NCBI GenBank assembly: GCA_947631925.1 | Contig: CANRNE010000006.1 | Location: 1 to 64,000, forward strand | Origin: an uncultured Clostridia bacterium | GTDB lineage: Bacteria > Bacillota > Clostridia > Christensenellales > Borkfalkiaceae | DNA: 64,000 nucleotides | Direction of reading: 5' to 3' | Shown here: positions 6,181 to 34,082 of the stretch, in pieces | Position numbering within the stretch: the stretch's first letter is position 1 | How the letters are laid out: each line of letters opens with the position of its first letter | Position numbers and translations under genes: made by a program | Notes under the pieces: model-generated | The model's input: the letters and a program-made list of their open reading frames with translations, nothing else | The model's database searches: none | What the model was told of the DNA's origin: nothing

Positions 6181-6362
6181 CCATTTCCAAATAATGTGCG
6201 CGAGCAAAACCACGCTTTTGCGCTGCGCGCCTCAATTTGCAACGCCACCGCAGGCTTATTGTCCGATGAAACAGTAACGCTTGTGCGGCTAAGAGCGGGA
6301 GAAGGTACGGACGCCCATCCGCTCGACGAAAAGATTTCCGCAGGAAAGATTTTCGCCGAAAC
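6181..6362 (-). repeat. Structured intergenic repeat family 1, copy A
   Basis: Shares long near-identical blocks with 33908-34082 and, inverted, with 31733-32192. Confidence 0.85.
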
Positions 6363-22066: not shown

Positions 22067-22073
22067 ATCACTT

Positions 22074-22110
22074 GACGCCCACGGCGGAAGTGAATTCCGC
22101 CTAAGGCAAG
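22074..22110 (+). repeat. 37-bp short repeat containing GGCGGAA-gtgaa-TTCCGCC hairpin
   Basis: GACGCCCACGGCGGAAGTGAATTCCGCCTAAGGCAAG, identical to 32196-32232. Confidence 0.9.
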
Positions 22111-23965: not shown

Positions 23966-24175
23966 TAGATTTCGGCGAAAATCTTTGCTACGCAAATCTT
24001 TTCGTCGAAGAAATAAGCGTTACTGCCTTAACGGGCTCGGTCTCTCGTTCGTTTCATCGGACAAGAAGCTCCGAGGTCGCAAATTGAGTGAAAAAGCAAA
24101 AAGCGTGGTTTTTGCTTTTTCCGTGAGAAGAATAGATTTCGGCGAAAATCTTTGCTACGCAAATCTTTTCGTCGA
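23965..24175 (+). repeat. Structured intergenic repeat family 1, copy F (about 1.25 tandem units, period 167 bp) between infA and rpmJ
   Basis: TTCGGCGAAAATCTTTGCTACGCAAATCTTTTCGTCGA at 23971 and again at 24138; right hairpin GAAAAAGCAAAAA-gcgtgg-TTTTTGCTTTTTC. Confidence 0.85.
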
Positions 24176-24239
24176 GCGGATGGGTGGCGGCGCAAGGAAA
24201 GCCGAGACGCAAAAACAACAAACAATTTGAGGTAACCAT

Positions 24240-30592: not shown

Positions 30593-31699
30593 TCACGGGA
30601 GCACGCGTTGGGTGAAGCGCACGTCCGCGTCCAATTTGTGTAAAAATTCCTCGATTTTTTCGCCGAGGACGGGCTCTGCGGGGGGCATGTCGGGGAAGAG
30701 GGCGACGATTTCGCACGAGAAGGCGAGCCCGACCTTTTTTGCGGCCGCCTTCAAATCGTCGGCTTTTTCGAGAATTTCCCCGAAGACTTCGTCGAGCGCC
30801 GCCTGCCAATTTGCATCCTCCGAGAAGCGGCGGAACCCGTTCGCGCACCGCGAAAACGGCGCAATCGGCCGGAGCGCCTCCTCGATTTCGAAGGGGTCGG
30901 GGAAGAACTCGAAGAAATCTTCGACGGGCACATCCTCCTCGAAGGGGTCGAACCGCTCCGTCCCGCGCACAACGAAGGAGACCGCATAGCGCGGCGCGGC
31001 ATCCTCGAGCACGAGGGCGAGCGCCCCCGCTTTCTGCTGTTCGGGAGTATAAATTTCGGACATCGCGGCGGCAAAGGCGGCGGCATCCGTCTCTGCGGGG
31101 GAGCCGAAATCCTCCGCGCAGAAGGTGTTCCCATAGTCGCGGCAGGTCATCTGCCCGAAGAGCGATTCAAAGTCGCTGTCGAGGAAGAGGGCGGAGACGC
31201 GCCTCAAAAGGCGCCCGCCGTGCCCCGTGAACTCGATATAATCCCCGATGTCGATGGCCTTGCGCTTGTCATCGAAGAGGCGGAACTCCACCCGCTTTTT
31301 GCCGCTCGCCATGGCATCGAACATGTCATCCCGCAGGTGCATGGAGAAGCGCTCGGCGAGCATGAGCCGGGAACAAATGCGCCCGTCATCCACCGTGGAC
31401 TTGGGGTATTTGCGGCGCGCGGGGTCGATGAGCTCGTTCATGTAGTAGTGCATGTACGAATACTCTCCCTCCTCGCCGCGTGCGCGCGCCATCAGCCCGC
31501 CCCAGCTCCGCCACGAGAGACAGACCTTCGTCCCGTCGTTGAGAACGGGGCAGTTCTCCTCGTGCGCATCGCCGCCGAAGCAGTACCCGTGTTCGACAAT
31601 TTCCCGCCGCACCGCCAGCTCCACCCGCGCCGTGACAGGCGCATGGTCGGGATATTGCATGTCGGTGTCATATGTCCATCCGATCACTTCGTAATTCAT
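30593..31699 (-). CDS. ASCH/PUA-like domain-containing protein of unknown function
   Basis: MNYEVIGWTYDTDMQYPDHAPV...; central SMHLRDDMFDAMASGKKRVEFRLFDDKRKAIDIGDYIEF resembles ASCH; start set downstream of the repeat-derived extension. Confidence 0.6.
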   Translation of the reverse strand: MNYEVIGWTYDTDMQYPDHAPVTARVELAVRREIVEHGYCFGGDAHEENCPVLNDGTKVCLSWRSWGGLMARARGEEGEYSYMHYYMNELIDPARRKYPKSTVDDGRICSRLMLAERFSMHLRDDMFDAMASGKKRVEFRLFDDKRKAIDIGDYIEFTGHGGRLLRRVSALFLDSDFESLFGQMTCRDYGNTFCAEDFGSPAETDAAAFAAAMSEIYTPEQQKAGALALVLEDAAPRYAVSFVVRGTERFDPFEEDVPVEDFFEFFPDPFEIEEALRPIAPFSRCANGFRRFSEDANWQAALDEVFGEILEKADDLKAAAKKVGLAFSCEIVALFPDMPPAEPVLGEKIEEFLHKLDADVRFTQRVLP

Positions 31700-31732
31700 A
31701 ATTCCTCCATGTTTCGACAAAAATCTTTTCTT

Positions 31733-32192
31733 GTTTCGGCGAAAAGCTTTCCTACGGAAATCTTTTCGTCGAGGAAATTGGCGTTTGCGGCTTAATTTGT
31801 CTGGTCGTCGCGGTCGTTTCATCGGACAATAAGCCTGCGGTGGCGTTGCAAATTGTGTCGCGCAGCGCAAAAGCGTGGTTTTGCTCGCGCAAGTAATTTT
31901 AGGTTTCGGCGAAAAGCTTTCCTACGGAAATCTTTTCGTCGAGGAAATTGGCGTTTGCGGCTTAATTTGTCTGGTCGTCGCGGTCGTTTCATCGGACAAT
32001 AAGCCTGCGGTGGCGTTGCAAATTGTGTCGCGCAGCGCAAAAGCGTGGTTTTGCTCGCGCAAGTAATTTTAGGTTTCGGCGAAAAGCTTTCCTGCGGAAA
32101 TCTTTTCGTCGAGGAAATTGGCGTTGGCGCCTCAATCGGCTTATTGTCGCGGTCGTTCCATCGGACAATAAGCCTGCGGTGGCGTTGCAAAT
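31733..32192 (+). repeat. Structured intergenic repeat family 1, tandem array of three units (copies C-E), period 170 bp
   Basis: Unit starts (GTTTCGGCGAAAAGCTTTCC) at 31733, 31903, 32073; first two units nearly identical, third diverged in the centre. Confidence 0.95.
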
Positions 32193-32195
32193 GGG

Positions 32196-32232
32196 GACGC
32201 CCACGGCGGAAGTGAATTCCGCCTAAGGCAAG
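32196..32232 (+). repeat. 37-bp short repeat, second copy
   Basis: Identical to 22074-22110. Confidence 0.9.
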
Positions 32233-32329
32233 GAATTTAGAACTCGTACCCACCCCCCTACCCCCCTCCGCGGGAGGGGGCATGAGGAGCGATTCCTCGG
32301 GAGGGGCATGCATGGCGCCTCCGTGGGTA

Positions 32330-32378
32330 GCAAACGCATTCTTCGCGCACAGCACAGTGCGCTGTGCGCGGCGTTTGC
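32330..32378. repeat. Long hairpin in noncoding DNA
   Basis: GCAAACGC-attctt-CGCGCACAGC-acagtgc-GCTGTGCGCG-GCGTTTGC. Confidence 0.8.
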
Positions 32379-32631
32379 GAAGAGTGAGCGCATTCGCCGC
32401 GCGAACGATGACCGAGGGCAGGGCTCTACCTGCCCGAGAGAGCTGTCGAGCGAAGCGAGACTGAGGTGGGGCGCATTCTAAATTTGTCATGCTGAGCCGC
32501 CGCATCGCGGCGAATCGAAGCATATCCGCAAGAAAGGCCAACCCCTGCCGGGGGCACCTGTGCTTTTCCATCAACGCAGAGAAATAGTGCGCCCTTGCCG
32601 AGAGAGGCAAGGGCTGTTTCTTACAAAAATA

Positions 32632-33650: not shown

Positions 33651-33665
33651 AGTTGAATTTTTTTT

Positions 33666-33701
33666 CGAAGAAAATCTTTGCGTGCGCAAAGATTTTCTTC
33701 G
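33666..33701. repeat. Solo left hairpin of repeat family 1
   Basis: CGAAGAAAATCTTTGCG-tg-CGCAAAGATTTTCTTCG perfect stem; flank GAGCGGATAGGCGG matches copy F. Confidence 0.8.
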
Positions 33702-33907
33702 AGCGGATAGGCGGTTACGCCTTCTCCTGCTCGTAGCCGCGCAAGCGGCGCGTGGAGCCACCTCCCCCCTTATACCTGAGGGGGGAGCGCCGCAGTTCTC
33801 GCTCAACAGCACGGGGTGCTGTGAGCGGCGGCGCGACAGGAGCGCTGGCAGGCGCGACGGACTTTGCGGCGGTCCCTGCCGCCCAAAGAGGGTAGGGTAG
33901 GGGGTGT

Positions 33908-34082
33908 CATTTCAAAATAATGTGCGCGAGCAAAACCACGCTTTTGCGCTGCGCGCCCCCATTTGCAACGCCACCGCAGGCTTATTGTCCGATGAAACGA
34001 CCGCGACGACGAGTCTATTAAGGCGATTCGGCTAATTTCCTCGACGAAAAGATTTGCCCCAAGCAAAGCTTTTCGCCGAAAC
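33908..34082 (-). repeat. Structured intergenic repeat family 1, copy B
   Basis: Near-identical blocks shared with copy A at 6181-6362. Confidence 0.9.

Follow-up and report, generated by a model that had tools for sequence, protein, structure and literature searches.

Small dispersed repeats shape the intergenic regions of many bacteria, and few of their families have a compensated fold as complex as the one described here. BOX elements of Streptococcus pneumoniae have the composition boxA-boxB-boxC (PMC3049150), and REPs are high-copy intergenic palindromes which keep their complementarity and lie predominantly downstream of genes (PMC3733652, PMC2817692). REP hairpins are processed by TnpA-REP in their single-stranded, folded form (PMC8266576); likewise, the palindromic attC sites of integrons are recognised as folded DNA hairpins (PMC3053210). 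Classical MITEs are short, non-coding, dispersed and presumed to be mobilised in trans (PMC2229807, PMC10969869).

A triple repeat located in the window, i.e. the whole stretch of 64,000 nucleotides analysed here, represents one of the arrays formed by a family of multi-hairpin DNA elements that had not been catalogued before. Neither the array nor copies from the loci of 20 relatives matched Rfam at the gathering score, and no description of the family was found in the literature searched, which left out most subscription journals and preprints. By comparison of features, the element would seem to work most like BOX elements and REP/BIME repeats, yet it is without their defining features where these were tested. 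It shares with BOX a modular, structured and dispersed nature, a narrow taxonomic range, the capacity for tandem repetition, a presumed non-autonomous state, frequent location downstream of genes and clustering with other repeats. In this comparison, made by layout, it differs from BOX by alternative sequences in the hairpin slots, distinct hairpins capping the arrays, another order of modules and repetition of whole units, whereas in BOX the number of boxB varies. Like REP/BIME repeats and REPINs, the elements are high-copy extragenic DNA palindromes with complementary changes, found mainly downstream of genes; in contrast to REP/BIME, they carry up to five hairpins per unit, follow a direct rather than inverted order and have no associated RAYT. 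With attC they have in common palindromic sites in tandem series joined at a fixed point, but no gene cassettes lie between the units, and an integron integrase was rejected as mobiliser as TIGR02249 scored over the cut-off in 0 of 61 genomes.

An earlier note had described three tandem units with a period of 170 starting at 31733, 31903 and 32073, and this array is real (Table 1). TRF reported 31733-32192 with period 170, 2.7 copies and 96% matches, and a direct-repeat search revealed 100% identity over 170 bp between 31733-31902 and 31903-32072. The left hairpin GAAAAGCTTTCC-tac-GGAAATCTTTTC and the right hairpin GCGCAGCGCAAAA-gcgtgg-TTTTGCTCGCGC are present exactly as first given. The folding energy of one unit was low compared with shuffled sequences on the + strand (z = -3.67; 1 of 200 shuffles as low) and to a weaker extent on the - strand (z = -2.34). 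The array end, placed initially at 32192, had to be moved to near 32229, since unit 3 continues into an alternative terminal hairpin, GCCCACGGCGGAAgtgaaTTCCGCCTAAGGC, which closes the array. Unit 3 has H1 and most of the middle in common with units 1 and 2 and differs in the middle module and the end hairpin. Its perfect central stem (32138-32148 with 32164-32174) was confirmed, but it is not generally conserved because most other copies in the genome have a different middle module.

Table 1. Array units, hairpins and further copies of the element in the window (CM, covariance model)
Feature	Position	Strand	Remarks
Full copy	6189..6362	-	81.8 bits
Isolated END3 hairpin remnant	22072..22108	+	
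Copy with GAAAAAGCAAAAA-type H4, then second H1	23970..24176	+	BLASTN and CM matches
Half H1 hairpin (5' arm only), TTTCGACAAAAATCTTTTCTT	31711..31732	+	Adjoins array; precedes first unit of several arrays
Unit 1	31733..31902	+	TRF, direct repeat; CM R1 match 87.4 bits
H1 hairpin of unit 1	31736..31772	+	Arm complementarity kept across copies despite changing sequence
H3 hairpin position of unit 1	31833..31849	+	Covarying in A1 and A2; hairpin weak in source species, strong in relatives
H4 hairpin of unit 1, conserved core AAAAGCGTGGTTTT	31860..31890	+	
Unit 2, identical to unit 1	31903..32072	+	Direct repeat; CM 87.4 bits
Unit 3, terminal, different middle module	32073..32229	+	CM 33.1 bits
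END3 alternative terminal hairpin, GCC-CAC-GGCGGAA-gtgaa-TTCCGCC-TAA-GGC	32199..32229	+	Fills H4 slot
Truncated copy: perfect H1 and beginning of middle module	33665..33750	+	
Full copy directly downstream of SRP RNA T-run	33914..34082	-	CM match

The array lies in the leader region of a minus-strand gene, beginning 34 nt upstream of its likely start codon. The adjoining frame at 30593-31699 (-) encodes a 368-amino-acid protein without Pfam match, and the SRP gene of G002 has a gene for a similar protein immediately downstream (locus L088). Half-arms like the one preceding unit 1 were also found at C24:494-511, in C15 and C25 and in G002. A string of other dispersed repeats (ACCCACCCCCCTACCCCCCTCC..., a GCACAGCACAGTGCGCTGTGC palindrome and GTCATGCTGAGC...GAAGCAT) adjoins the array on its 3' side (32230-32620), and the same repeats come after other copies of the element throughout the genome. 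The array is thus part of a longer mosaic extending to about 32620.

About 170 units share a common order, namely H1, a middle section of one or two stems, GACAATAAG, H3, CAAATTG and H4, at a length of about 170-230 bp. H1 is bordered by GTTTCG..CGAGG or GTTCAC..CGTGAGG. Stem sequences drift, but complementarity persists, as do loops and short spacers, the loop GCGTGG and the spacer CAAATTG being nearly invariant. Arm pairing of H1 amounted to 0.895 within units vs 0.308 across units, the former value being inflated because H1s were picked by complementarity. H3 and H4 were found by position and therefore provide a fairer test. Here, covariation, which the earlier note had proposed to check, was significant both in alignment A1 and in genera outside the training set. 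Among the 59 sequences of A1, 92.1% of the cells in H3 and H4 were paired, compared to 70.8% after shuffling and 33-53% with partners slid, and the covariation score was 0.446 vs 0.108 for shuffled data. Alignment A2 comprises 48 sequences from the family genera g26, g185 and g186 which were found with covariance model R1 (H3 and H4, built from A1) and were absent from its training set; 95.7% of cells were paired vs 70.1% shuffled, both sides had changed in 12 of 15 pairs, and the fitting of this alignment to the model favours structure, with shuffles and slides using the same alignment. The element takes a long form in these three genera, about 180-230 nt in length and with as many as five hairpins, compensated stems and conserved loop sequences, among them GAGCTGAC in H1 and AAGGGCAC in the inner loop of H2. 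The form in the source genome looks like a reduced version of the long form, the direction of this change being inferred.

Strong covariation by itself is no proof of an RNA, and the identity of the mismatches allowed a distinction. Variable, well-paired columns of SRP RNA (genus and order) contained 14.8% G-U pairs with a G-U:A-C ratio of 221:18. The corresponding columns of the long form contained 1.1% (7:9), and A1 and A2 gave 19:17 and 4:4, these two counts keeping only helices that mostly pair. Variable stems of the repeat are thus nearly pure Watson-Crick: G-U makes up 0.7-2.5%, is no commoner than A-C and falls about six- to twentyfold below its share in SRP RNA, although the SRP set covers wider divergence, cells are non-independent and exact ratios should not be over-read. 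Fisher tests against SRP RNA yielded p = 3e-6 for the long form, 2e-8 for A1 and 0.003 for A2, measured on alignments of partly related copies. An earlier count for H3 alone (G-U:A-C 11:2) was not upheld by these fuller counts. As DNA palindromes, unlike RNA stems, are expected to have strand-symmetric mismatches, we infer that the fold is kept at the DNA level and not as RNA. With hundreds of copies in several genera, the comparison of G-U with A-C offers a simple measure separating DNA-level from RNA-level folding.

These counts also bear on the regulatory role which the earlier note had considered. A structured RNA family, regulatory or stabilising 3' UTRs and kept for its fold in the transcripts of neighbouring genes, would account for the strong compensatory change, for the near-invariant loop and spacer and for the many copies which begin right after stop codons and would belong to a 3' UTR. 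Yet, besides the scarcity of G-U, copies occur on both strands and in mixed gene orientations, some of them, including the window array, upstream of genes in opposite orientation; copies number in the tens per genome and neighbour unrelated genes, and Rfam had no match. The proposal of a regulatory RNA element is therefore not supported, and we consider an RNA family in general unlikely. A function of the units as intrinsic terminators was rejected, as four terminator-like sites were found vs 2.0 expected and H4 has a poor T tail; no promoters were found in the units.

Upkeep of the fold at the DNA level would reflect selection on the folded strand, correction by template switching, or both. 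In a rival explanation, template switching of DNA (quasipalindrome correction) together with gene conversion between copies would perfect the palindromes, the hairpins would have no role in movement, and the repeats would spread through ordinary recombination or through some unrelated route of transposition. Watson-Crick-only, strand-symmetric stems, mosaic modules exchanged between copies and the identity of units 1 and 2 are in agreement with this explanation. However, loops and spacers outside the stems are conserved across genera as well, and correction alone does not give rise to copies in new places behind T-runs and stop codons, so that we regard it as doubtful.

The search of the source genome and its relatives by covariance model, suggested as a check in the earlier note, recovered many further copies; neither of the two outcomes that the note had named as refuting, a lack of further copies and a lack of significant covariation, was observed. 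BLASTN identified about 60 matches at about 40 sites of the 1.92-Mb source genome, and model R1 detected at least 69 copies (E <= 0.01; 79 candidates scored). By its SRP type, genome size and GC content, the host is likely to be an uncultured lineage resembling Clostridia. The same model gave matches in 34 of 37 genus genomes, source genome included, and in 4 of 18 genera sampled from the family; in the rest of the order, weak matches were confined to a single genome, G041. Of the 37 genus genomes, 29 contained the exact H4 core, with a similar frequency on either strand, and none a reversed control pattern. As far as tested, the element is restricted to the source genus and some sister genera. 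Carriage by phages or plasmids was rejected, as neither collection contained a match to the element.

Copies were found clustered immediately behind stop codons and terminator T-runs. For 43 first units the upstream sequence was long enough to be examined; 19 of them were preceded at 0-5 nt by the stop codon of an open frame (>=60 codons), compared to 0-7 in other 6-nt bins, an excess which could also reflect purifying selection against other positions. The test relied on simple frame opening, because the codon model was unable to orient neighbouring genes reliably in GC-rich DNA. The flanks are about 66-78% A/T at positions -2 to -6 with C being rare, and no strict target word was found in them apart from this AT-richness. 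At the SRP RNA terminator, an element follows the T-run in G000 (the source genome; copy 33914-34082), G008 (two loci) and G009, G020 retains an H1-like remnant, and the site is empty in nine congeners (G002, G004, G005, G007, G012, G015, G016, G018 and G019). Like MITEs, the elements are short, non-coding, dispersed and presumably mobilised in trans; in contrast to them, H1 and H4 are separate hairpins and no single pair of terminal inverted repeats spans the element. No target-site duplication was seen in the flanks or at the SRP sites, where the empty sites compared belong to other species.

Dispersed copies, filled and empty sites and conserved hairpins support well the earlier proposal of a structured mobile repeat, and the elements have the look of small mobile DNA passengers, not of genes or regulatory RNAs. 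We consider it probable (roughly 0.6) that they are non-autonomous and recognised through folded single-stranded DNA by a trans-acting enzyme. This enzyme would recognise one strand folded as single-stranded DNA and place a new copy in AT-rich DNA where a gene ends, or beside a resident copy, while later recombination between copies may shuffle modules.

No transposase or recombinase tracking the copies and no autonomous, gene-bearing version of the element were found. REP/BIME-type repeats moved by a RAYT (TnpA-REP) would resemble the element as high-copy intergenic palindromes with conserved complementarity predominantly downstream of genes, and the source genome has one IS200-like Y1_Tnp. 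However, the REP tag (GTAG or CGTC, unpaired at a palindrome end) is not conserved, the H1 CGTC of this species changing in others; moreover, the units are head-to-tail and 170-230 bp long in contrast to palindromes of 20-40 bp in opposite orientation. Matches to Y1_Tnp are patchy and uncorrelated with the copies, and absent in the copy-rich G001, G006, G026, G024 and G035, for which reason an IS200-type mobiliser was rejected. Movement by a RAYT, weakened already by these findings, is thus very improbable. The sole clear Y1 transposase gene of the source genome (L077; G000:C11:31472-31792) looks truncated. PF04986 (Y2 HUH transposase, IS91/Helitron type) had no match anywhere, control genomes included. 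A reverse transcriptase was rejected as well, as most copy-rich congeners have no RVT_1 match and those in the source genome are likely eukaryotic. The latter are three long open reading frames with a reverse-transcriptase domain on G000 contigs C41, C54 and C57 (L169-L171); the two that were read, C41 and C54, look like eukaryotic LINE retrotransposons, with 2A-like NPGP motifs in C41, and some eukaryotic contamination of the assembly is therefore probable.

Arrays are head-to-tail with one fixed junction, at which the units abut with no gene between them. In the source genome, the H4 of all 11 internal units is canonical and leads into AATTTTAG^GTTTCG or a closely similar sequence, vs 10 of 40 terminal units (p = 7e-6). 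The types found there only at array ends are END3, a GAAAAAGC-type H4 and an inserted-repeat type; END3, confined in this genome to the last units of arrays, also occurs in congeners. Amplification in tandem, as first proposed, holds for units 1 and 2 of the window, which look like a recent exact duplication, but not for the rest of the genome: mean identity was 0.81 for units of one array vs 0.775 for units of different arrays, and most arrays were therefore assembled from different members at the fixed junction. One may speculate, with little confidence, that a new folded-single-strand-DNA recombination system is at work, in which an enzyme acting in trans links the hairpin units in head-to-tail order at the fixed junction and distinct capping units terminate the arrays, independent of HUH REP transposases and integron integrases. 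The many copies available for the G-U test, together with filled and empty sites at a fixed gene, make the family a good system for finding the moving enzyme and for studying array growth.

Several copies deviate from the common architecture. At L039, L042, L052 and L158 of several congeners, the H1 loop contains about 60-130 nt of other sequence, often other repeats, and the arms are still complementary. In L043 (G027; 1501-1830), H4 alone recurs about every 64 nt in a near-tandem series, which suggests that H4 may multiply by itself. The H4 slot of six copies in the source genome (C13, C15, C17, C2:118099, C2:81023 and C24) is interrupted at one point by a fixed insertion (GAGCGCCGCAATTCTCGCTCAACAGCAC...) of roughly 100 nt, which indicates that a second repeat family targets the element.
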